IMG/VR virus record: IMGVR_UViG_3300034198_007289
Span: 1 to 26,569 of that record
Strand: one strand, 5' to 3'
Length of the DNA stretch: 26,569 nucleotides
Origin: a virus
Shown here piece after piece: positions 3 to 20,891 of this stretch (position 1 is its first letter; every line of letters begins with the position of its first letter). Position numbers and translations under genes: made by a program. Under the pieces are notes generated by a model. It did no database searches. It was given only the letters and a program-made list of their open reading frames with translations, and had not been told where the DNA came from.

Positions 3-227
3 CTAATCGAAAAATCCTTGCGTGATGCTGGGCTTTCCCGAAAAGATGCGACCACCGCATCTTCAATCCTCAAAAAAGTATTGGAACAGCGTGATGTTGA
101 ACCAGAAACAGTTGAGGTAGCCCCTATTCAGAGTGAGCCTGAAGCGGTGGTCGAAGAAGCTGATGAAATTCTACAAGCCTTAGAGCAAAGAGAACTTCTA
201 AAGCAATTATCTAATCGCATTAAATAA
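3..227 (+). CDS. C-terminal end of probable prohead protease (partial)
   Basis: The reading frame is already open at the left edge (codons from base 3), so only the last 74 codons are present. The visible text LRDAGLSRKDA is the kind of short helix-turn motif found near the C-terminus of HK97-type prohead proteases, followed by a Glu-rich tail of low complexity. Position supports the call: it ends 9 bases before the major capsid gene, and proteases of this family normally sit directly upstream of the capsid gene, where they cut off the capsid scaffold arm. No catalytic residues lie in the visible part. A scaffold protein is the alternative. An internal TTG at 18 could be read as a start, but the frame stays open before it. 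Confidence 0.6.
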   Translation, partial: LIEKSLRDAGLSRKDATTASSILKKVLEQRDVEPETVEVAPIQSEPEAVVEEADEILQALEQRELLKQLSNRIK

Positions 228-236
228 GGAAAAATC

Positions 237-1610
237 ATGTCTGAAAAGATCATTGAAAAACTTGATGCAATTGAAGCTACTCAAGTAGCTGAAATGGCTA
301 AAGTTAAAGAAGAAACAGTAGCGGCAGTTGAAGCAATCAAAAATGAAATGACTGAACAAGTTGTTGCATTAGAAGCTAAAATTTCTGCTATTCAAGCACC
401 AGAAGTTATGCGTACTCCAGCTAAATCTGTTAAACAAGATGTAAACCGCAAGGTTAGAGAACAGTTAGCTAAGTTTGTTAAAAAAGGTTCATTAAACAAA
501 GAATTTGAAATGTTTGCTGATGAATCTGAGTATCAAGCATATTTACAGGAAGATGGTTCACAAATTGGTAATCCTGCTGGTTATGGTGGTGGTTACAATG
601 TTGGTGGTCGTACTGCCTATGATCCTGTATTTCACAAATTGCGTTTGATGAACCCTTTGCGTGGTGCAAGTCGTAATGTCACTACAGATGGTTCTGTATA
701 TCAATTCCGGGCAAAAACTGGAAATGCTGGCGCACAATTTGGTTATGCAATTCAAAACAATGGTGCTCCAACAACTGAAAACACAAACATTTGGCAAACA
801 GTTTTGCAAGATATGAACTGTCAATTCCCAATTCGTACAGCGGCACTTGATGATATTGATGGTTTAGAATCTAATGTTGTTGATGATATGCTTCTAGAAT
901 TTTCGGCTCTAGAAGGACTTGCGATGATTCAAAATAATAATCAATCATCACCAACAGGAAATCCTACTGGTGGTTCAAATGGTATTATTGGTTTGAATCA
1001 ATATGCTAATGGTCAAATGGGATACAATGGTGGCACAATTTCTACTGCGGCTTTTGGCTCAAGTGGAACTGCATCTACTGATGGCTTGCATACTATTGCT
1101 ACTTATGACCAGATCACAACCAATGGCTATGCAACAACTGGTGCTGGTGCAAACAATGTAACTTTTGATGACATCATCACTTTCTTACATAGCTTGCCAC
1201 AAGAATATTGGACACCAGATGCTAAGATTATTGTTAATCCATTCTTCCTTGCTCAGATTCGTGGCTTGAAAGATACCAATGGCACTCCAATTTTTGATCG
1301 TATGACACCATTGATTACTGATGGCATCGTAGGTCAAATTGCTGGCTTTGATGTTGTGGTTAATAAGTATCTTGATACTCCATATCAAACTGCTTCTAAT
1401 ACTACCAATGAAAACCTTTATCCAATGTACTTCGGACAATGGAGTCGTTTCCACACAATCGTGGATCGTCTAAACATGGTATTGCGTAGATATGATCAGA
1501 CGCTCCCCGGTTTCATAACTTTCTTTGGAGAAAAGCGGCTTGCCACAAGCGTAGTCGATCCATTCTCTGCAATTCGTTATCGTTCCACAGCAACTGCTCT
1601 TGATGCATAA
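237..1610 (+). CDS. Major capsid protein, HK97 fold, with N-terminal scaffold-like arm
   Basis: Forms the icosahedral shell. Residues 1-60 are a Glu/Lys/Ala-rich coiled coil, as in the delta (scaffold) domain of HK97 capsid proteins; a Lys-rich linker follows, and the shell domain begins near GGRTAYDPVF (residue 123). The pattern of acidic helix plus paired Glu residues (DDMLLEFSALEGLAMIQNN) and the C-terminal block (QTLPGFITFFGEKR, then VVDPFSAIRYR) fit the family, as does the 457-residue length. The start is backed by AAGGA 7 bases upstream. The next gene is a paralogue with the same shell-domain landmarks but without the arm, and a terminator lies between the two. Likely processing by the upstream protease is inference. 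Confidence 0.88.
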   Translation: MSEKIIEKLDAIEATQVAEMAKVKEETVAAVEAIKNEMTEQVVALEAKISAIQAPEVMRTPAKSVKQDVNRKVREQLAKFVKKGSLNKEFEMFADESEYQAYLQEDGSQIGNPAGYGGGYNVGGRTAYDPVFHKLRLMNPLRGASRNVTTDGSVYQFRAKTGNAGAQFGYAIQNNGAPTTENTNIWQTVLQDMNCQFPIRTAALDDIDGLESNVVDDMLLEFSALEGLAMIQNNNQSSPTGNPTGGSNGIIGLNQYANGQMGYNGGTISTAAFGSSGTASTDGLHTIATYDQITTNGYATTGAGANNVTFDDIITFLHSLPQEYWTPDAKIIVNPFFLAQIRGLKDTNGTPIFDRMTPLITDGIVGQIAGFDVVVNKYLDTPYQTASNTTNENLYPMYFGQWSRFHTIVDRLNMVLRRYDQTLPGFITFFGEKRLATSVVDPFSAIRYRSTATALDA

Positions 1611-1617
1611 TAAAGTT

Positions 1618-1651
1618 GGGGTGGTCAAAAGCCACCCCGCTTTTAATTTTT
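1618..1651 (+). terminator. Intrinsic terminator between the two capsid genes
   Basis: A perfect 7-bp stem GGGGTGG / CCACCCC (1618-1624 with 1632-1638) closes a 7-base loop and is followed directly by GCTTTTAATTTTT. Strong GC stem plus T-rich tail is the classic Rho-independent form. It lies in the 57-base gap after the first capsid gene, so it should reduce or end transcription before the second capsid gene and the connector genes unless it is leaky or antiterminated. Confidence 0.85.
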
Positions 1652-1667
1652 AACATTTGGAATAAAT

Positions 1668-2723
1668 ATGGCAAACCTAATTCTTGAAGCAGTCAAAACC
1701 GCCCTTAAAGATGGCGAAGCTACAGTAAACCTTAATGAAACTGGCTCTGCACTTACTGGCTCTGGTTCTGGAGTTGGTGGTCGTGTAATTTATGATGATG
1801 CTTTTGCATCTTTGCGTCAAAACAACCCTATTCGTAATGCTGGTGCAAGAATAATCACCACCATAGGTTCAGATGAAGCCTTTGTGGTTAAAACTGGCAA
1901 CATTACCAATGTTCAACAAGGCAGTACATATAACCCTTGGGGTTATCCAATTAACAATAACAATGCCCATGCTTCAACAGGCATTGCTACTACATACTGG
2001 CAATTGCCAGTTCGTGCCATTAATGCTGTAGTACCAGTAAGAAATGCTGTGATGGGCGATATTAATAATATCAATGAAGCTATTGTTAGCGACATAGCGC
2101 TAGAATTTGCTCAACAAGAAGCACTTTCAATGATGCTCAATAATGACCAATCAGGATCAACAACTTATAACTATGGGGCTACTCAGGGTTTGCGTGGTTT
2201 AAATAGCTATCCTAGTTCTACATCTGCCGCATCTTTTGGTTCTAATGGTCCAGCTATTACCAATGGTAGGCATACAGTTTTAGCAGTATCACAAGCATCT
2301 GCTGGGGCAGTTTCTTATAATGATTTAGCTAATTTGGCTGGTGCTTTGCCCCCTCAATATTGGTGTGATCCATCAACTTGCTGGATGATGCACCCAACGA
2401 CTATTACTTTATTGCGTGAATTAGTAACAACTACTTCTGGTATTCCTTACTTCTTAGAAGTTGGCGATGAAGATGGTGGTGCAGTTGTTTATATGTTTGG
2501 CTTCCCTGTAGTTCCTAATCCTTATATGGATTTGGCTGGTGCTGGCAAATTCCCAGTTTACTTAGCGGCATGGAATCAATTTGTAACTGTTGCTGATAGC
2601 GAATTAATGAGCATCAAAGCATTTGAACAAACTCAGCCCGGTTTCACAACTCTGTTCTGCGAAAAAAGGGTAGTTTCTACAATTCGTGATGTATTTGCTG
2701 GTGTTCGTTTGACCCACAGTTAA
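1668..2723 (+). CDS. Second HK97-fold capsid protein lacking the scaffold arm
   Basis: Paralogue of the preceding capsid protein. The shared landmarks are GGRVIYDDAF (residue 37, against residue 123 in the first protein), NPIRNAGA / NPLRGASR, the acidic helix SDIALEFAQQEALSMMLNND, a GLRGLNSY loop, and the C-terminal QPGFTTLFCEKR followed by a DVFAGVR block. At 351 residues it lacks about 86 N-terminal residues, including the coiled coil. That is seen directly; what it means is not. It may be a minor shell component, a penton or decoration-like subunit, or a second major subunit that relies on the scaffold of the first. It follows an intrinsic terminator, so it is probably made in a different amount. 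No strong Shine-Dalgarno is seen (TTGGAATAA before ATG). Confidence 0.82.
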   Translation: MANLILEAVKTALKDGEATVNLNETGSALTGSGSGVGGRVIYDDAFASLRQNNPIRNAGARIITTIGSDEAFVVKTGNITNVQQGSTYNPWGYPINNNNAHASTGIATTYWQLPVRAINAVVPVRNAVMGDINNINEAIVSDIALEFAQQEALSMMLNNDQSGSTTYNYGATQGLRGLNSYPSSTSAASFGSNGPAITNGRHTVLAVSQASAGAVSYNDLANLAGALPPQYWCDPSTCWMMHPTTITLLRELVTTTSGIPYFLEVGDEDGGAVVYMFGFPVVPNPYMDLAGAGKFPVYLAAWNQFVTVADSELMSIKAFEQTQPGFTTLFCEKRVVSTIRDVFAGVRLTHS

Positions 2724-2731
2724 GGTAAGCT

Positions 2732-3400
2732 ATGCCATTAGATAGTCTAACTAATGGTCCTTTTTTAGGGACTACTAGGAATCCATATAGCTATGAAAAA
2801 ATAGAGCAAATCAACCGGGACATTCAAACTGGTTGGCTTACTCTTGATCAGATTACCCAACAGCTAAACCTATTTCAAGATGAAAGCCAAGATAGTTATC
2901 TATCAGGACTTGAATTGGCAACTCGTATGGCGATTGAGGACTATCTTGGGATGTCCATATTTCCCATCACTTACAAAGTGTACTATGGCACTTTTAATGG
3001 CATGACAGGAACACAAATGTCTTTGGATTTGCCAGAAGTTAGTCAAGGAAGCCAAAATCGTGCTGGAGTGGTAATTAAAGAAGTAGCTTATTATTCTGGG
3101 GCTACACCCCCTGTATATACCATTATTAGTCCAACAAGCTATTACTATGATCCAACTGGCAATAAAGTTATTGTTACTGGTATTCCAGATTCTGCTAGTC
3201 AAATAATGACTAACCCAATTGTTTGCACTTATCAAACTAATGCAAATCCTTTGGCACAATACCCAATAATTCAACAAGCTGGATTATTGCTTTTAACTCA
3301 TTTATATAACAACCGCAGTAATACCTTTAATGGAAAATTGGATGAAATTCCTTTTGGAGTAGCCCAGTTACTTAGACCTTACAAGCCTTTGGTGATGTAA
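2732..3400 (+). CDS. Head-tail connector protein (gp6 / phiE125 gp8-like)
   Basis: Adaptor that docks under the portal ring and begins the neck. The helical core near residues 53-75 (DSYLSGLELATRMAIEDYLG) followed by a beta segment (ITYKVYYGTF) is the usual layout of the Phage_connect_1 / gp6 group: two helices, an inserted beta domain, and a C-terminal helix (here QAGLLLLTHLYNNR) ending in a short PYKPL tail. A length of 222 residues is normal for the phiE125 gp8-like subgroup. It directly follows the capsid genes and shares its stop/start with the next gene (TAATG), implying coupled translation. The N-terminal 45 residues are not recognised. Confidence 0.75.
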   Translation: MPLDSLTNGPFLGTTRNPYSYEKIEQINRDIQTGWLTLDQITQQLNLFQDESQDSYLSGLELATRMAIEDYLGMSIFPITYKVYYGTFNGMTGTQMSLDLPEVSQGSQNRAGVVIKEVAYYSGATPPVYTIISPTSYYYDPTGNKVIVTGIPDSASQIMTNPIVCTYQTNANPLAQYPIIQQAGLLLLTHLYNNRSNTFNGKLDEIPFGVAQLLRPYKPLVM

Positions 3401-5097: not shown

Positions 5098-5611
5098 TGT
5101 AATATCTATTCAATTTGAAGGAATTGAAGAATTTACTCAATTGCTAAATGAAATAAAAGATGACTTTAGCGAAAAAGACAGCAAAAAGATTTTAAACAAT
5201 GCAGTCAAGCTGGCTATGAAACCAGTGTTAGACAAAGCTCAATCCCTTGTGCCAATAGATACTGGAGCACTTAGGGCATCCCTTAGAATTGAAGCTAGAA
5301 AGCCTACAGGCAGGGACAAAAGATCAATATATGTTAATCCTACAGATGTAGTCATTGGAACAGTTACTACTGCTCCCGGTAATGTTCTTAAAAAGAAAAA
5401 GTTTGTAAATCAGAAAACAGGGAAAAAAGAAACTGGTATTGCTAGTGATGCAAGAGCAGTGGCTAATGAATTTGGTACAGCAAAAATTTCAGCAAAGCCA
5501 TTTATGCGACCAGCAATGGAAACTAGCACTCAACCAGTTTTAAATTCTTTATCACAATCATTAAAAGTAGCATTAGAAAAATATCATGCAAAACAAGCTA
5601 AGAAAGGCTAA
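5090..5611 (+). CDS. HK97 gp10-like minor head-tail/tail protein
   Basis: 173 residues from the chosen ATG. The N-terminal pattern FEGIEEFTQLLNEI, a helix with KKILNNAVKLAMKPVLDKAQ, and the conserved VPIDTGALRASLRIEARK are diagnostic of the HK97-gp10_like family (PxdTGxLrxSi). The later ANEFGTAKISAKPFMRPAMET block is the second family hallmark (EfGT...p..PFmRPA). Starts at GTG 5081 and ATG 5084 are also possible; ATG 5090 is preferred because AAGGG at 5077-5081 then has an 8-base spacing. The family usually lies before the tail terminator and tube genes; here it lies after them, an order change worth noting. Confidence 0.8.
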   Translation: MADVISIQFEGIEEFTQLLNEIKDDFSEKDSKKILNNAVKLAMKPVLDKAQSLVPIDTGALRASLRIEARKPTGRDKRSIYVNPTDVVIGTVTTAPGNVLKKKKFVNQKTGKKETGIASDARAVANEFGTAKISAKPFMRPAMETSTQPVLNSLSQSLKVALEKYHAKQAKKG

Positions 5612-5617
5612 AACAAA

Positions 5618-6106
5618 ATGAATCAATTTGCACAAGCATTAGGCGATAAATTTGTAGAGCAAAAAGAAGCAATCCGAATGAGATCATTTGAATTTGCTGG
5701 GCATACTTTTAAAGTTAAAGTTCCATTAACTTCTGAATTTGAATTAATCCAAAAAGACATAAATAGTATTGATGAAAATATTATTAATAAATATTATGAA
5801 GAATTATCTAAGGAATTAATTGAAAATAAAGATAAAGCAAAAGAAGATTCTGAAATTGAATATAAAGATAATGACATTTTTGTTAAAGGAAAATCATTAA
5901 AAGAAGCATCTAAAAATAAAGCATTAACTGAAAAAAGGATTACTACTTTATTTAGATTTCTTGTGCCAGAGCAAAAAGACTTTGACATGAATACCATTAC
6001 TTATGACATGATTGAAGAATTATTCCCATTTTCAATTCAGATGGAATTAATTAGTCTAATTGGCGATACCATTTCCCCTAACTATAAAGAAACTAGGGGA
6101 AAGTAA
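5618..6106 (+). CDS. Tail assembly chaperone, G-like (zero-frame product)
   Basis: 162 residues. Beta-rich start (RSFEFAGHTFKVKVPLTSEFE) followed by long Lys/Glu-rich helices, the layout of G-type tail chaperones that coat the tape measure protein before tube assembly. It sits two genes upstream of the tape measure gene in the reading order G - (T) - tape measure. The last codons read AGG GGA AAG TAA: the heptamer G GGA AAG at 6097-6103 is exactly the lambda gpG/gpGT slippery site, in the correct phase, with the stop immediately after. Most ribosomes would stop here and make G; a fraction would shift -1 into the next frame. Confidence 0.82.
   Translation: MNQFAQALGDKFVEQKEAIRMRSFEFAGHTFKVKVPLTSEFELIQKDINSIDENIINKYYEELSKELIENKDKAKEDSEIEYKDNDIFVKGKSLKEASKNKALTEKRITTLFRFLVPEQKDFDMNTITYDMIEELFPFSIQMELISLIGDTISPNYKETRGK
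6097..6103 (+). promoter_or_regulatory. -1 programmed ribosomal frameshift site GGGAAAG
   Basis: Zero-frame codons AGG-GGA-AAG form X XXY YYZ with X=G, Y=A, Z=G. This is the same heptamer documented for lambda G/GT. The zero-frame TAA follows at 6104-6106, and the -1 frame is open from 6097 (just after a TAG at 6094-6096) to 6453, so a shift here is the only way to fuse the two frames. No clear downstream stem-loop or pseudoknot is obvious by eye; lambda also has no strong one. Confidence 0.88.
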
Positions 6107-8926: not shown

Positions 8927-9616
8927 ATGACAACAACAATGGCGGCATTAAACTCTGGGTCAATCAGAGTTGTTGAATTTGTTAGATTAACAATGCCAAC
9001 TGCCACCTATACCTTTTGTAATGCGGCTAGTCCTATAACAGTTAATAGCATTACATTTAATGGTTTGGGGTCATTACTTGGTATTTCAGAAATTCAAAAT
9101 GACATTAAAGCCAATAGTGCAGATTTAAAAATATCTTTAGTTGGTATTGATCCAGCTAATATTGTCATTATCTTAGGTGCTGATATAAAAGGAAGCAAAA
9201 TAGAAGTATGGAGAGGATTCTTAGATTCTAATAATCAAATTCAAACCATTAGTAGTGTTCAACAATTTTTTAAAAGATACCAAGGCATTATTAATAATGT
9301 GGCAATTACAGAAGATTTTGATGATAAAGCAAGAATAAGAACTGCTACTTGCATTATTTCTTCAGCTTCCATGCGATTGGTATTGGAATCAAGAAAAGCA
9401 GGAATAAGAACCAATCCACAAAGCTGGAAAGCATTTTATCCAACTGATACAAGCATGGATAGAGTTCCAATTATTGCTTCTACTTATTTTGATTTTGGAA
9501 AAGAGCCAAAAGGGGGAAGTCAATCTGGTGGCAATACTTTCCTTGGTCGTAGTGTTGGTGGTGGTGATGGTGGTGGTGGTGGTGGTGATACAACTCAAAC
9601 ATTTGATCAACCTTAA
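8927..9616 (+). CDS. Tail-tip protein (lambda L / DUF2163-like) with Gly-rich tail
   Basis: 229 residues with an AGGAG ribosome site. The N-terminal segment (IRVVEFVRLTMPTATYTFCN, then a strand-rich IEVWRGFLD region and an RIRTATCIISSASM region) resembles the tail-tip proteins related to lambda L and DUF2163/DUF1833, which bridge the tube and the central fibre. The short Cys positions (C32, C146) may reflect the metal site that L-type proteins have, but not all four ligands are clear. The C-terminus is a nearly pure Gly/Asp stretch coded by GGT/GAT repeats, followed by TTQTFDQP. It precedes the GNAT and J-like genes. Confidence 0.6.
   Translation: MTTTMAALNSGSIRVVEFVRLTMPTATYTFCNAASPITVNSITFNGLGSLLGISEIQNDIKANSADLKISLVGIDPANIVIILGADIKGSKIEVWRGFLDSNNQIQTISSVQQFFKRYQGIINNVAITEDFDDKARIRTATCIISSASMRLVLESRKAGIRTNPQSWKAFYPTDTSMDRVPIIASTYFDFGKEPKGGSQSGGNTFLGRSVGGGDGGGGGGDTTQTFDQP
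9557..9589 (+). repeat. GGT trinucleotide repeat encoding a Gly/Asp tail
   Basis: Eleven in-frame codons: three GGT, GAT, six GGT, GAT. The tract lies near the end of the tail-tip gene. Slippage by whole units would change linker length without breaking the frame. Confidence 0.8.
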
Positions 9617-9621
9617 AAATT

Positions 9622-10068
9622 ATGATAAGAAAAGCAACAAGATACGATATTCCAATATTATTGAATATGCTTAAAGAGTATTGCAAAGAAATACCAATAA
9701 AATCATATAAAAGAAATGAATTACAAAATGTTGAATATGCTACAAATTTATTATTTACTATTATTAAGGCTAGAGGATTTATATTAATTGATAATGATTA
9801 TCGGGGAATGTTAATAGCTGTAGTAACAGCAAATATTTGGTTTCCAAAGTCTTATGAATTAAATGAATTGGCTTGGTGGGTTAAACCAGAATTTAGACAG
9901 GCTTCAATAGGTGGTAAATTATGGTTGGAATTTAATAAAGAAGCACAAAAAATGTTAGATGAAAAAAGAGTTGATGTTATATATACATCCTTAATGGAAA
10001 ATAGCCCATCAATAGATTATGAAAAGCGAAAATTTAAAAAGCTAGAAACAAAATATTTTAGGGAATAA
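9622..10068 (+). CDS. GNAT-family N-acetyltransferase
   Basis: 148 residues with the GNAT outline: start IRKATRYDIPILLNMLKEY (strand 1/helix 1), middle strands, then motif A as ELAWWVKPEFRQASIGGKLWLEF (residues 82-104; the V-x-P-x-x-R-x-x-x-I-G-G-x-L pattern binds acetyl-CoA pyrophosphate), and a following helix plus IYTSLMENSP strand. It would move an acetyl group from acetyl-CoA to an unknown amine. It lies inside the tail-tip block, between the L-like protein and the J-like fibre, the place lambda uses for K and I. The gene is more AT- and Lys-rich than its neighbours and has no Shine-Dalgarno, hinting at a later insertion. The substrate (virion protein or host target) cannot be told. Confidence 0.75.
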   Translation: MIRKATRYDIPILLNMLKEYCKEIPIKSYKRNELQNVEYATNLLFTIIKARGFILIDNDYRGMLIAVVTANIWFPKSYELNELAWWVKPEFRQASIGGKLWLEFNKEAQKMLDEKRVDVIYTSLMENSPSIDYEKRKFKKLETKYFRE

Positions 10069-14688: not shown

Positions 14689-17600
14689 ATGGCAGAACTA
14701 AAAGTTACTAATGCTAGTGGCGATACAGTAAATGTTGATGTAGCTATAGGCAATCAAATTACTTTAACAGTAGATAAAGGAAATGCTGGTGCATCTGGTT
14801 TCTCAGGGAAATCGGGGTATAGCGGTTTTAGCGGGGTTGGTTTAAGTGGGACATCGGGCTGGTCAGGGTATTCTGGTTCAGGAATCAGCGGCTACTCAGG
14901 AAGCGGGATTAGTGGTTTCTCAGGGTTTAGCGGGGAATCAATTTCGGGATTTTCTGGGTACTCAGGAAGCGGGATTAGTGGTTTCTCAGGGGAATCTACA
15001 TCAGGCTTTTCGGGCTATTCAGGCGAATCAACTTCTGGTTTTTCTGGGTATAGCGGGCAAGACGGGCAATCGGGCTATTCAGGCGAAACAATTTCTGGGT
15101 ACAGCGGCTATTCTGGCGAAACAGTAAGTGGGTACTCTGGGTTCTCAGGCGAATCTATTTCTGGCTATTCTGGTTATAGTGGGACACAAGGCACATCCAT
15201 TAATGTAAAGGGAACTGTTCCTACAGTTGCAGATTTACCAACAATAGGCAATCTTCCTAATGATGCTTATATAGTTTCTGCTGATGGCAATTTATATGTA
15301 TGGGATGGATTTGCTTGGAATAATGTTGGACAAATAGTAGGACCACAAGGGCAAAGCGGTTTTTCAGGGTATAGCGGGGATTCAACATCTGGTTATTCTG
15401 GGTACTCTGGCGAATCTATATCTGGCTACAGCGGGCAAGACGGGCAGTCGGGGTTTAGCGGGCAAGATGGGCAAAGTGGCTACTCAGGATTTTCAGGGAT
15501 AGGTTTATATTGGCAAGGCACTTGGAGTTATTATTCTGCTTATATTGCAAATTCTATTACTATTGGTTCTGATAACAATACTTATATTGCCATTACTGAT
15601 GTACCACCATATAACTATGACCCAAGCATAAATCCTACTTATTGGTCTTTATTTGTTCCTCAAGGTACAAGTGGATTTTCAGGGTTCTCAGGCGATTCAA
15701 CATCAGGGTACAGCGGTTACTCAGGCGATTCTACATCGGGCTTTAGCGGGTTTAGCGGGCAAGATGGGCAATCAGGTTTTTCAGGCGAATCAACTTCTGG
15801 CTTCTCAGGGTATAGCGGCGAATCCACATCGGGCTTTAGTGGTTACTCTGGCGAATCAATTTCAGGATTTAGCGGTCAGGATGGGCAATCGGGCTTCTCT
15901 GGGTTTAGTGGGGAATCAATTTCAGGGTTCTCTGGGTACTCTGGCTATTCAGGAATTGATGGAGATGGGCGTAGCGGGGACTCTGGGTTCTCGGGTTACA
16001 GCGGGGAATCAATCTCAGGGTTTAGCGGCTATTCTGGGCAATCAGTTTCGGGGTACAGCGGTTACTCAGGCTCTGGTATATCTGGCTTTTCGGGAAGCGG
16101 AATTTCTGGGTGGTCGGGTTTTTCAGGATCGGGAATCTCTGGATTCTCTGGAAGCGGCATAAGCGGTTGGTCTGGCACATCGGGTTATAGCGGGGCTTCT
16201 ATAAGCGGTTATAGTGGGTTCTCAGGATCAGGTATATCTGGGTATAGCGGAAGTGGAGTTTCGGGCTACAGCGGCTTCTCAGGGGCTACTGTTAGCGGGT
16301 TCTCAGGATTTAGCGGTAGCGGAATTTCTGGGTATTCTGGGACATCAGGGTATTCAGGCTCTGGCATATCGGGTTTTAGTGGAAGCGGTGTATCGGGGTA
16401 TTCTGGCTTCTCAGGATCGGGCATATCTGGATTTTCGGGATCAGGCATAAGTGGCTGGTCAGGGTTTAGTGGTTCTGGTATTAGCGGGTATTCTGGAAGC
16501 GGGATCAGCGGCTGGTCAGGTTACAGCGGGGCAACAGTTTCTGGGTTCAGCGGTTACAGCGGAAGCGGTATAAGTGGGTACTCAGGATCGGGCATAAGTG
16601 GGTACTCAGGGTACAGCGGTAGCGGTGTATCGGGCTATAGCGGATCGGGCATAAGCGGTTGGTCGGGCTTTTCAGGATCGGGCATTAGCGGCTATTCAGG
16701 AAGCGGTGTATCTGGGTATTCGGGCTATTCGGGATCAGGAATTTCTGGCTTTAGCGGTAGCGGAATTAGCGGTTGGTCAGGGTACTCAGGATCAGGGATT
16801 TCGGGTTACTCTGGAAGTGGGGTATCAGGATTTTCGGGGTACAGCGGTAGTGGCATTAGCGGGTACTCAGGTTCTAGTGATACTTGGTTGGGTGCTTGGT
16901 CAAGTTCTACAGCTTATGTAGTTAGAAATATTGTTTCTTATAATGGTTCTAGTTATTACTGTATTCTTGCTAACACAAATCAACTTCCAACAAATACTAC
17001 TTATTGGAATTTATTGGCACAAAGCGGTTACAGCGGGTATTCAGGCTCAGGGGTAAGTGGCTGGTCGGGTTACAGCGGTATTGGGATCAGCGGTTACTCT
17101 GGGTATAGCGGAAGTGGTCTATCGGGCTACAGCGGATTGGGGGTCAGCGGGTACAGCGGTTACAGCGGTAGTGGTCTATCGGGCTACAGCGGAAGTGGTC
17201 TATCAGGGTACAGCGGATCGGGCATAAGCGGGTACAGCGGTTACAGCGGTAGTGGCTTGTCAGGCTACAGCGGAAGTGGCATATCGGGTTACTCAGGGTA
17301 TAGCGGAAGTGGTTTATCAGGGTATAGCGGTTCAGGGGTCAGCGGGTACAGCGGTTATAGCGGTACAAACTCAATGGCTTTAATTAGCACATTGACTGCT
17401 TCAAGTTCAGCAAACTTAGCATTTACAGGGTTATCAACTTACGATAGATACATCTTAATATTTAGAAATTTAGTCCTTGGTACTTCTAGTAATGGCATAA
17501 CTTTGCTATTTGGATATGGAGCAACACCAACTTATATTACAAGCGGATATGTTTATCAAAGATTTTCCAGCACAGGTCCTTCAGGTGCTAGTGATGGTTC

Positions 17601-17859
17601 AACCAGTGCTAGCAGTGGGTATATTTTTAATTTTAGTCTTTCAAGTACTTACACCATTTCTGGTTTTCAAATTATTACAGGAACTGGACAAACTGGAAGT
17701 ATTATGGCATCGGGTGAGTTTGGTTCAAGTACAACTGCCGCTGGAATTGTGTCAAGTTATGTAAGTTCAGGGGCTAATATTATTACTGCAATTAAAATTA
17801 CTCCTAGTGCTGGAAGTTTTACTTCTGGCACAGTATCACTTTATGGTCTTTCATCTTAA
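14689..17859 (+). CDS. Long repetitive tail fibre with GYSG/GFSG repeats and globular modules
   Basis: 1056 residues. Layout: N-terminal beta domain 1-35; repeat block 36-168; module 171-221 (GTVPTVADLPTIGNLPNDAY...DGNLYVWDGFAWNNVGQ), a common phage-fibre knob; repeat block 222-272; Trp/Tyr-rich module 273-326 (WQGTWSYYSAYIANSITIGSD...YWSLF); repeat block 327-729; related module 730-778 (WLGAWSSSTAYVVRNIVSYN...YWNLL); repeat block 779-892; C-terminal 164-residue beta domain ending VSLYGLSS, the likely receptor-binding head. The two Trp modules look like CBM5/12-type carbohydrate-binding modules. About 700 residues are Gly/Ser/aromatic repeats; the dominating unit is GSGISGYS. The gene is richer in GC than its neighbours. 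AAGGA precedes the ATG. Sugar-modifying genes follow, so the Ser/Tyr-rich shaft could be a modification target (inference). Confidence 0.85.
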   Translation: MAELKVTNASGDTVNVDVAIGNQITLTVDKGNAGASGFSGKSGYSGFSGVGLSGTSGWSGYSGSGISGYSGSGISGFSGFSGESISGFSGYSGSGISGFSGESTSGFSGYSGESTSGFSGYSGQDGQSGYSGETISGYSGYSGETVSGYSGFSGESISGYSGYSGTQGTSINVKGTVPTVADLPTIGNLPNDAYIVSADGNLYVWDGFAWNNVGQIVGPQGQSGFSGYSGDSTSGYSGYSGESISGYSGQDGQSGFSGQDGQSGYSGFSGIGLYWQGTWSYYSAYIANSITIGSDNNTYIAITDVPPYNYDPSINPTYWSLFVPQGTSGFSGFSGDSTSGYSGYSGDSTSGFSGFSGQDGQSGFSGESTSGFSGYSGESTSGFSGYSGESISGFSGQDGQSGFSGFSGESISGFSGYSGYSGIDGDGRSGDSGFSGYSGESISGFSGYSGQSVSGYSGYSGSGISGFSGSGISGWSGFSGSGISGFSGSGISGWSGTSGYSGASISGYSGFSGSGISGYSGSGVSGYSGFSGATVSGFSGFSGSGISGYSGTSGYSGSGISGFSGSGVSGYSGFSGSGISGFSGSGISGWSGFSGSGISGYSGSGISGWSGYSGATVSGFSGYSGSGISGYSGSGISGYSGYSGSGVSGYSGSGISGWSGFSGSGISGYSGSGVSGYSGYSGSGISGFSGSGISGWSGYSGSGISGYSGSGVSGFSGYSGSGISGYSGSSDTWLGAWSSSTAYVVRNIVSYNGSSYYCILANTNQLPTNTTYWNLLAQSGYSGYSGSGVSGWSGYSGIGISGYSGYSGSGLSGYSGLGVSGYSGYSGSGLSGYSGSGLSGYSGSGISGYSGYSGSGLSGYSGSGISGYSGYSGSGLSGYSGSGVSGYSGYSGTNSMALISTLTASSSANLAFTGLSTYDRYILIFRNLVLGTSSNGITLLFGYGATPTYITSGYVYQRFSSTGPSGASDGSTSASSGYIFNFSLSSTYTISGFQIITGTGQTGSIMASGEFGSSTTAAGIVSSYVSSGANIITAIKITPSAGSFTSGTVSLYGLSS
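14794..15192 (+). repeat. Fibre repeat block 1 (coding GxSG repeats)
   Basis: About 133 codons of GYSG/GFSG units, with SGES and GQDGQ variants (for example SGESTSGFSGYSG). Serine is coded by TCA, TCT, TCG, AGC and AGT in mixed order, so the DNA units diverge although the protein units are nearly identical. Confidence 0.85.
15352..15504 (+). repeat. Fibre repeat block 2 (coding GxSG repeats)
   Basis: About 51 codons between two globular modules, rich in GQDGQSGFSG-type units. It begins right after the GPQG hinge. Confidence 0.85.
15667..16875 (+). repeat. Fibre repeat block 3 (longest)
   Basis: About 403 codons. The first part uses SGES/SGDS/SGQD units; from about 16050 onward it becomes a regular SGSGISG[Y/F/W]SG array (24-base unit). 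GWSG units recur at irregular intervals. This is the largest tract for possible slippage or recombination. Confidence 0.88.
17023..17364 (+). repeat. Fibre repeat block 4 (coding GxSG repeats)
   Basis: About 114 codons, rich in GLSGYSGSG units. DNA here is the most uniform of the four blocks (tacagcggtagtgg and close variants recur), which suggests recent unit duplication. Confidence 0.85.
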
Positions 17860-18295: not shown

Positions 18296-19525
18296 ATGAA
18301 ATACAGCATAGTAATACCAACATACAATAACTGCGAAAAATACTTAAAACCCTGTATTGATTCCATCATCAAATATACTGATATGGAATTAGTGGAGTTA
18401 ATTATTTCTGCCAATGGTTGCACAGACAATACTAGGGATTACCTTAGATATTTAAAAACTGCTATTCCCAATATGAAATTTACTTGGGAAGATAAACCAT
18501 TAGGATTTGCTAAAGCTACCAATGAAAGCATTAAAATTGCTACAGCAAATAAAATTATTTTGCTAAACAATGACACTATTTTGCTAGATCAACCTAAAAA
18601 TAGATGGCTAGAATGGTTAGATCAAGGCGATGTTAATTATGTTCTTGGTCAATATTCCCCAATTACTCAAAGGCAATTTGGTGTTTTCTTTTGTGCTTTA
18701 ATCAAAAGATCAGTTTTTGCTAAAGTTGGTTTGTTAAATATTGATTATGAAACTGGTGGTTGTGAAGATATAGAATTTTGTTATTTAGCTGAACAATCAG
18801 GGTTTACCCTTGTAGATTGTGGCAACAATGGCACTTATCCAATCTACCATGTAGCAGAAGGCACAATGCACGACCCAGCATTAGTGCAAAATTGGAAAGA
18901 TAAATTCCATGCTAATGAACTGAAACTGGCTAAGAAATATAACCTAGATCAATACCGCTATTTGCTATCTAACAATTATGAAAGAGCAGTATTCTTAAAG
19001 GGTGATCCAGTTTTTCCTAGAGAAACACAGCGATATGAATGGGCGGCAAAAAATCTATTAGATGGCTCAATATTTGAATTAGGATGCACAACAGGCTATG
19101 GAATCCAATATCTTTCAAACAAGCATGGTTATACTGGTCTTGACTATGATCCTATCATTATTGATGTCGCAAAAGAACAACAATGGTCAGACAATGCAAG
19201 ATTTATTTCTGCCAATATTAATGTATATGACTTGGATTTTTATACTAATATCATTGCTTTTGAAGTCATTGAACACCTAGACAATGGATTAGAAATAGCA
19301 CAAAAGCTAAAAAACCATTGCAAGCGATTATTGCTTACAGTCCCTTGGAATGAGCCTAAAGGCTTTTGGGGTGAACATCATAAACTACATGGTTTGAATG
19401 AATCTCATTTTGAAGGATTTGAATTTGAGTATGTCAATGAGCATGGCGATATATCTAGCCTTCCACAAGTTATTGATGCCAACAACAAATGCAACCTAAT
19501 GTTATGCAAATACTCTGCTCAGTAG
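18296..19525 (+). CDS. Glycosyltransferase family 2 fused to a SAM-dependent methyltransferase
   Basis: 409 residues, two domains. Residues 1-215 are a GT-A/GT2 domain: start YSIVIPTYNNCEKYLKPCID, IISANGCTDNTRDYL, DXD-like NND at 91-93 in ILLNNDTILLD, and the acceptor-site ED motif GGCEDIEFCYL (154-164). Residues about 240-409 are a class I methyltransferase: motif I ELGCTTGYG (261-269), motif II acidic GLDYD (281-285), and FEVIEHL (322-328). The protein could build and O-methylate a sugar on the same acceptor. Acceptor candidates are the upstream fibre or host surface glycans; the sequence does not decide. Its end overlaps the next gene. Confidence 0.82.
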   Translation: MKYSIVIPTYNNCEKYLKPCIDSIIKYTDMELVELIISANGCTDNTRDYLRYLKTAIPNMKFTWEDKPLGFAKATNESIKIATANKIILLNNDTILLDQPKNRWLEWLDQGDVNYVLGQYSPITQRQFGVFFCALIKRSVFAKVGLLNIDYETGGCEDIEFCYLAEQSGFTLVDCGNNGTYPIYHVAEGTMHDPALVQNWKDKFHANELKLAKKYNLDQYRYLLSNNYERAVFLKGDPVFPRETQRYEWAAKNLLDGSIFELGCTTGYGIQYLSNKHGYTGLDYDPIIIDVAKEQQWSDNARFISANINVYDLDFYTNIIAFEVIEHLDNGLEIAQKLKNHCKRLLLTVPWNEPKGFWGEHHKLHGLNESHFEGFEFEYVNEHGDISSLPQVIDANNKCNLMLCKYSAQ

Positions 19526-20466
19526 CCACTAGAGGTCGCTACACAACGACTTTGCCAATGGTTTTAATGGCTATAGCCAATCAGACAAAAGTGCCTGATA
19601 AGCTGGTTATATTTGATGATAACGATGAACCACAAGATATGAGGGAAAACCCTATATATCAGCATATATTTCAAATATTGAATTACAAAAAGATAGCTTG
19701 GGAATGGGTTTATGCTGAGAAAAAAGGACAGCATCATATTCATCAAAGAGCAAACACAATGGGCTTTGATTGGGTTTGGAGAGTAGATGACGATGCCATC
19801 CCAGAACCTAATGTCTTAGAACAGCTTTGTAGTCACATTGATACTACAGTTGGGGCTATTGGTGGCTCAATCTTTACCATGCCCAATGTATTTGATACCA
19901 GCAAATCTACAGGAAAAATTGCTAATATTGATTCTGAACCTAATATTCAATGGGGTAACATATATGTTACTAAAGAAGTAGAGCATTTACATTGTTCATT
20001 TCTATATAGGGCTGGAATCCATGATTACAATTTAGGCTTGTCTAGGGTAGCACACAGGGAAGAAACGCTATTTACCAATGGTATATACCAAAAAGGGTAT
20101 AAAGTTTTGGTAGTTCCAAATGCAATTACTTGGCATTTAAAAGCACAAGGGGGAATCCGAAGTGAAAATAAGCAAGAACTATATTCCCATGATGAAACTA
20201 TTTTTAGAAATATTAGTGGACTTTGTGATAGCACCATTGTTGTTCTTAATTGTGGTATTGGAGATCACCTTGTTTTCAGCCATATACTTCCTGAGATTTC
20301 TAATCCTATCTGTTTTACTTGTTATCCTGAAATTATAGAAGGGAAGTCAATAGCTGAAGCACAAGCATTGTTTGGTGATATAGACCAATGGAATATTTAT
20401 AAAAAGATGGCTCAATGGAATTGGAAAGGCAGTCTTGAAGATGCCTACAGAAAGCTATATTTATGA
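19504..20466 (+). CDS. GT2 glycosyltransferase with a C-terminal half GT-B (GT9-like) domain
   Basis: 320 residues from the preferred ATG (an in-frame ATG lies 15 bases upstream; MQILCSVATRGR fits the usual GT2 strand 1). The GT2 part has KLVIFDDND (33-41) and the DXD motif WRVDDDAIP (92-100, DDD at 95-97), with a later EETLF acidic motif. From about residue 235 a second domain starts: DSTIVVLNCGIGDHLVFSHI, which resembles the N-terminal Rossmann half of GT9/heptosyltransferase-like proteins, but the protein ends after only 85 residues of it. The remaining half seems to be the next gene, started through ATGA. It overlaps the preceding gene by 22 bases. Confidence 0.78.
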   Translation: MQILCSVATRGRYTTTLPMVLMAIANQTKVPDKLVIFDDNDEPQDMRENPIYQHIFQILNYKKIAWEWVYAEKKGQHHIHQRANTMGFDWVWRVDDDAIPEPNVLEQLCSHIDTTVGAIGGSIFTMPNVFDTSKSTGKIANIDSEPNIQWGNIYVTKEVEHLHCSFLYRAGIHDYNLGLSRVAHREETLFTNGIYQKGYKVLVVPNAITWHLKAQGGIRSENKQELYSHDETIFRNISGLCDSTIVVLNCGIGDHLVFSHILPEISNPICFTCYPEIIEGKSIAEAQALFGDIDQWNIYKKMAQWNWKGSLEDAYRKLYL

Positions 20467-20891
20467 TTGTTATTCATCCTTATGCCAAAAAATTAATGAA
20501 TGGCAAAGAAAACCCTAAAAACTATCCATATTGGAAAGAATTGATTGCATTGATTGATGAGCCAATTATCCAAGTAGGCATAGAGGGCGAAGAACCATTA
20601 GTGCATGAATTTTTAAAAAATTTACCAATTGCAAGACTTAGAGAGTTAATAGCAGAATGTCGTATCTGGATTGGGGTTGATAGCTTTTTTCAGCATCTTG
20701 CTTGGGACTGTAACAAACCGGGTATTGTTTTATGGTCAGTATCAGACCCATTAATATTTGGGCATTCTGAAAACATTAATTTATTAAAAAGCAGGGATTA
20801 TCTAGCCCCAAATCAGTTTTTATGGTGGGATTTTACTGAACATAATGCTGAAGCATTTGTTTTACCAGAAGAGGTGGTAAAATTCCTTTAA
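20463..20891 (+). CDS. GT9-like C-terminal (nucleotide-sugar binding) half of a GT-B glycosyltransferase
   Basis: 142 residues, start overlapping the previous stop by 4 bases (ATGA). It begins with a Rossmann strand (MIVIHPYAKK), has PIIQVGIEGE, then CRIWIGVDSFFQHLAWDCNKPGIVLWSVSDPLIFGH (residues about 67-102). That last block is the hallmark of the C-terminal domain of ADP-heptose:LPS heptosyltransferase-like (GT9) proteins: D-S/T-x-x-x-H-x-A...gKPgi..wg.S.P..fGh. Full GT9 enzymes carry both halves in one chain; here the first half is fused to a GT2. The two chains probably assemble into one GT-B enzyme, or the gene was split by mutation. Last gene of the sugar block. Confidence 0.75.
   Translation: MIVIHPYAKKLMNGKENPKNYPYWKELIALIDEPIIQVGIEGEEPLVHEFLKNLPIARLRELIAECRIWIGVDSFFQHLAWDCNKPGIVLWSVSDPLIFGHSENINLLKSRDYLAPNQFLWWDFTEHNAEAFVLPEEVVKFL

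Follow-up and report, generated by a model that had tools for sequence, protein, structure and literature searches.

The window analysed here, i.e. a stretch of 26,569 bases from the virus record IMG/VR IMGVR_UViG_3300034198_007289, carries two shell-protein genes side by side, which are tandem HK97-fold paralogues and are called A and B in the following. The reading towards which we lean is that the pair is an independently evolved counterpart of gp23 and gp24 of phage T4, in which A would build the hexamers and B most likely the pentamers at the vertices, a vertex position that we infer.

Both genes lie on the plus strand. A (positions 237 to 1610) encodes a major capsid protein of 457 residues with a scaffold-type N-terminal arm of 105 residues, and B (1668 to 2723) encodes a protein of 351 residues that has no coiled coil. 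Against the Pfam family PF05065 (Phage_capsid; curated cut-off 24.2), A scores 89.9 bits (E = 2.4e-25) and B 66.7 bits (E = 3e-18), and both match PHROG 10, 'major head protein' (5.4e-29 and 1.2e-15, respectively). The two proteins align with 33% identity over 336 residues (E = 2e-50), and there are 67 alignment columns of at least 90% conservation in which the residue is identical in both families, including GGR, YD..F, the acidic helix and Q..PGF...EKR. The tandem HK97-fold capsid paralogues and the common shell-domain landmarks that an earlier note on this DNA had proposed are thus real. The same holds for the fold of B, which had been named beforehand as a point on which the proposal might fail. 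Modelled with its family alignment at moderate confidence (mean pLDDT 59, pTM 0.60), B is HK97-like, the best Foldseek match in the PDB being the capsid of the Rhodobacter capsulatus gene transfer agent (RcGTA; 6tb9, E = 7.7e-15), with HK97 prohead I (8fqk) at 8.6e-13. The model of A finds the same capsids more weakly (6tsu, 2.5e-7), because it is itself poor (mean pLDDT 49).

The surroundings of the pair are those of a head operon. The window begins within a gene of which only the end is left (3 to 227, plus strand; SLRDAGLSRKDATTASSILKK...), and this appears to be the C-terminal end of a prohead protease: on its own the open reading frame has no family match in PHROG and Pfam profile searches, but its C-terminus matches the complete reading frame in the protease position of a relative (L144), and the gene upstream of A in Methylophilaceae phage P19250A is a Peptidase_S78 (E = 3.8e-9). 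Directly 3' of B lies a head-tail adaptor (2732 to 3400, plus strand; connector matches to PHROG 442 and 40), after which tail genes follow (PHROG), and this places B inside the head operon.

Several features were observed in and behind the tail region. Amid the tail genes, positions 14689 to 17859 encode a protein of 1056 residues that consists mostly of GYSGFSG/GSGISG-type repeats, with several tandem repeats in the DNA, and that looks like a collagen-like tail-fibre protein. A reading frame at 9622 to 10068, likewise amid the tail genes, resembles a GNAT acetyltransferase (by eye only), while a run of TGG triplets at 9544 to 9587 (14.7 copies) gives the reading frame at 8927 to 9616 a Gly-rich tail. 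After the tail genes, three reading frames (18296 to 20891) have, by eye, the look of glycosyltransferases or sugar-modifying enzymes; the one at 18296 to 19525 has a GT2-like start and seemingly runs into a methyltransferase-like part (also by eye).

Other genomes with the same pair, for which a search had been suggested, exist in large number. IMG/VR was queried with each protein singly and with an alignment joining the two (309 relatives for B and, for the combined alignment, at least 593), and the reading frames of all fetched loci were classified with profiles of the A and B families. After removal of pair duplicates 155 loci remained, 149 of which hold both genes, and in each of these 149 distinct contigs A lies directly upstream of B on the same strand. 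In five of the six single-gene loci the contig edge is immediately beside the gene. The sixth (L132) is a metagenome-assembled bacterial contig that carries the final 69 residues of A at its end, then a PHROG-26742 protein (the stretch of interest is 1 to 753) and then bacterial-type genes. It holds the sole A without a B within several kb, and is more likely a prophage remnant or a chimeric contig than a true relative with a lone A.

The distance between the two genes is nearly always 36 to 77 bp, but reaches about 350 bp in three distinct pairs (L144, L145 and L066/L068), and the gap is a place where genes insert. In L144 it contains a reading frame (5363 to 5689) that by eye resembles an HNH endonuclease, and the gap of L145 is equally long. 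In L068 (6077 to 6379) and L066 a domain of 100 residues, which matches PHROG 2859 (unknown function; E = 2e-24), is read in the same frame as the N-terminus of B, with no stop in between, so that a fusion of this domain with B is possible.

In 50,697 records, no cultured phage other than P19250A has the pair (E <= 1e-5). At E <= 1 the other matches are weak, mostly partial and to C-terminal parts of capsid proteins; six of these weakly matching phages (e.g. Bcep176 and SfIV), which served as tree outgroups, have one annotated major capsid gene each in the stretch shown. In P19250A (KX815270; genome 38.7 kb), a siphovirus (PMC8163748), genes 0005 and 0006 form the same tandem pair in the operon order portal, protease, A, B, head-tail adaptor, with 57.6% (A) and 52.3% (B) identity to the proteins of the window. 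The record names A 'gene transfer agent capsid protein' and lists B under 'hypothetical protein', i.e. the pair went unrecognised there.

The earlier note held that only A has a scaffold arm and that B lacks about 86 N-terminal residues. As far as the coiled coil is concerned the first claim stands, but calling B armless goes too far: B keeps a conserved N-terminal peptide of 24 residues that ends at the same invariant Glu as the arm of A, and is better described as short-armed. The figure of 86 is correct when counted at the GGR landmark (residue 124 in A versus 38 in B), although the difference is better expressed as N-peptides of 105 versus 24 residues. The arm of A (residues 1 to 105; positions 237 to 551, plus strand) ends at a proposed protease site, L103-Q-E105, and the peptide of B (residues 1 to 24; positions 1668 to 1739, plus strand) ends at L22-N-E24, where L22 and E24 are invariant in one of the family alignments. 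The junction just before the shell domain is common to A and B and consists of hydrophobic-x-Glu followed by (A)SALTGSGxGxGGR. Its Glu (residue 105 in A, 24 in B) is invariant across both families, and the motif reads L-x-E in 80 of the 81 unique B proteins (V-x-E in the remaining one) and M/L/F/Y/I-x-E in all 72 unique A proteins. Small insertions occur on either side of this Glu, i.e. after it in the A of the window (EDGSQIGNPAGYGGGYNVGGR) and immediately before it in the B of P19250A (8 residues). Upstream of it there is no obvious likeness between A and B, which differ there in length and make-up. The arm of A changes nearly twice as fast as the shell part (dN 0.37 versus 0.21), whereas the peptide of B is as conserved as its shell (0.23 versus 0.22).

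The junction Glu is probably a prohead-protease site shared by both proteins, and the likeliest meaning of the common sequence behind it is that cleavage would give the mature forms of A and B nearly the same N-terminus. The S78 protease of HK97 itself cuts after Lys103, so that a Glu site in the A/B family is one that we infer. The head proteases of T4 and of giant phages do cut after Glu, in SPN3US at A-x-E (PMC5694885). HK97-type major capsid proteins that scaffold themselves can be recognised by an N-terminal delta domain, a coiled coil some 100 residues long, and by a neighbouring S78 protease. A has this combination, with the long helix (residues 2 to 51) taken from a low-confidence model and the protease from P19250A, whereas B has its 24-residue peptide instead.

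Between the two genes lies a hairpin resembling an intrinsic terminator (1617 to 1651, plus strand; stem-loop 1617 to 1639), with a T-rich tail and six G-C pairs; no other hit in the region scanned has as many. A strong hairpin (MFE <= -12) is present in 119 of 120 unique A-B gaps of the relatives, while its stem sequence varies widely, with at least four pair types at every stem position; for the 56 gaps scored first, z-scores relative to dinucleotide shuffles had a median of -2.7. The lone gap without a hairpin is that of L071, in which the reading frame of A continues beyond its usual stop, and in L068 the hairpin stays right behind A despite the domain inserted in the gap. The ribosome-binding sites differ as well: judged by sequence and pairing with the 16S tail, A has a strong Shine-Dalgarno sequence (AAGGA, 226 to 230, plus strand) and B a weak one (TTTGGAA, 1656 to 1662, plus strand), with duplex energies of -6.2 and -3.3, respectively, in L003, a locus with identical proteins. 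The pairing is stronger for A in 69 of 74 pairs (Wilcoxon p = 1.6e-13). A hairpin between the genes, together with the stronger ribosome-binding site of A, suggests that less B than A is probably produced. The hairpin could alternatively protect the 3' end of the A mRNA rather than reduce transcription of B, which would shift the ratio in the same way.

When the A and B proteins are placed in a tree with the six outgroup capsid proteins, each family comes out as a clade of its own (support only 74 for A, 96 for B), and the two proteins of P19250A fall each within its own clade. The simplest account of these separate clades is a single duplication that predates the radiation of the group. The stem branch of B is the longer one, at 1.02 changes per column, and in combination with its lower score against PF05065 this marks B as the more changed copy.

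The closest parallel to such a pair is found in T4, where the vertices are made of the minor protein gp24, which shares about 20% identity with gp23 and probably arose from it by duplication, and where gp23 loses a propeptide of 65 residues and gp24 one of only 10 (PMC9958956). In both cases the shell proteins are HK97-fold paralogues, and here, too, the major member would carry a long propeptide and the minor one a short one. B is, like gp24, a paralogue of the major capsid protein, and the junction that it has in common with A would give it a propeptide of 24 residues against 105. Both T4 proteins are trimmed by a head protease that cuts after Glu (PMC9958956, PMC5694885), as is proposed here for A and B. 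In these respects the two pairs are comparable except for this cleavage, which is predicted for A and B, and for the location of B, which is proposed. T4 differs in having a separate scaffold protein (gp22) and a genome of 170 kb, compared to an arm that is part of A and a genome of about 38 kb here. Membership of A and B in the T4 gp23/gp24 family was considered and rejected, as a Pfam scan (E <= 0.1) gives PF05065 only, which points to an independent origin, i.e. a separate duplication in self-scaffolded phages.

The closest solved relative of both A and B, by profile as well as by fold, is the RcGTA capsid protein (6tb9, 6tsu). The solved RcGTA particles have one capsid protein, and the PDB entries 6tb9 and 6tsu list no second paralogue. 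HK97 and D3 agree with the phages here in operon order and in the family of the protease, and their arms of 102 and 113 residues, respectively, are of similar length to that of A. Arm length correlates with shell size (T=7 for HK97, T=9 for D3; PMC12749128), and a genome of about 38 kb combined with an arm close to that of HK97 in length suggests a T=7 shell. Unlike in the phages described here, which have a second shell gene, a single major capsid protein forms both hexamers and pentamers in HK97-type phages, and the pentons of D3 also bear scaffold towers (PMC12749128). A penton protein is therefore not needed a priori. A literature search (open-access papers only) found nothing comparable to this pair in small siphophages.

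Following these comparisons, A and B would be two shell proteins of one small (~38 kb) siphophage head. As a conventional major capsid protein, with HK97 fold and N-terminal coiled-coil scaffold arm, A should form the hexamers. B would have come from an A-like gene through the one duplication before the group diversified, keeping the fold and its N-peptide of 24 residues, and would have lost the coiled coil or never had it. A single prohead protease of the S78 type would probably process both precursors, cutting behind the Glu of hydrophobic-x-Glu and leaving almost the same residues in front of both shell domains, while the hairpin and the weaker ribosome-binding site would hold B below A, as a minor subunit requires. 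B would then most likely occupy the eleven non-portal vertices, with about 55 copies compared to about 360 of A if T=7, as gp24 does beside gp23 in T4.

Of the other roles that can be envisaged for B, a mixed shell has roughly one chance in four in our judgement: B would join A inside the hexamers at fixed positions and rely on the coiled coil of A as scaffold. Its shell domain is complete, with the 67 fixed columns that it shares with A, and the almost identical mature N-arm to be expected could make the contacts compatible. However, the expression signals indicate less B than A, and the hairpin and the weaker ribosome-binding site would favour a minor component such as a penton over an equal mixed shell. 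In addition, the class-specific fixed differences and the long stem branch of B point to a distinct environment for this protein, and no precedent for a mixed shell was found in the open-access papers searched. It is more doubtful still that B has another job altogether, be it as an alternative capsid, as an inner or neck component, or as a targeting subunit that brings the protease into the head. In favour of such a job it could be argued that the N-peptide is about as long as the sequences that target internal proteins to the T4 capsid (10 to 20 residues; PMC5694885). Yet B has a full-length HK97 fold with all shell landmarks and is located in the head operon directly after the major capsid gene. 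To our knowledge, HK97-fold proteins that are not part of the shell are rare in phage heads.

Decay of B after the duplication is very improbable. B is shorter than A and less like ordinary major capsid proteins, as its PF05065 score indicates, but it is retained in every adequately flanked viral contig, its reading frame is intact across the group, and its median dN/dS (0.18) is the same as that of A (0.19). B is thus as constrained as A and under purifying selection, by which decay is excluded, in agreement with what the earlier note had argued from the conserved landmarks. An assembly artefact or a chance likeness can be dismissed, as the same arrangement occurs in independent metagenome contigs and in the complete genome of a cultured phage, and the similarity between A and B is far too strong (E-value given above).

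With B as a vertex protein still the preferred reading, the chances seem about even that in widespread, small (~38 kb) self-scaffolded siphophages a second HK97-fold protein arose independently of T4 and is dedicated to the vertices (or to set places in a mixed shell). This protein would share the protease site of the major protein, and the conserved hairpin would help to fix their ratio. Hexamers and pentamers come from one and the same protein in the HK97-type phages that have been studied well, whereas here the two tasks would have been split independently, in an arrangement kept universally in a large environmental group. With genomes of T=7 size, this group may serve as a simple model for the question of why dedicated vertex proteins evolve and whether pentamers need a scaffold arm, as well as how the stoichiometry of a capsid is set. 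It also provides a likely function for the 'hypothetical' gene of P19250A, which is present in hundreds of viral contigs.
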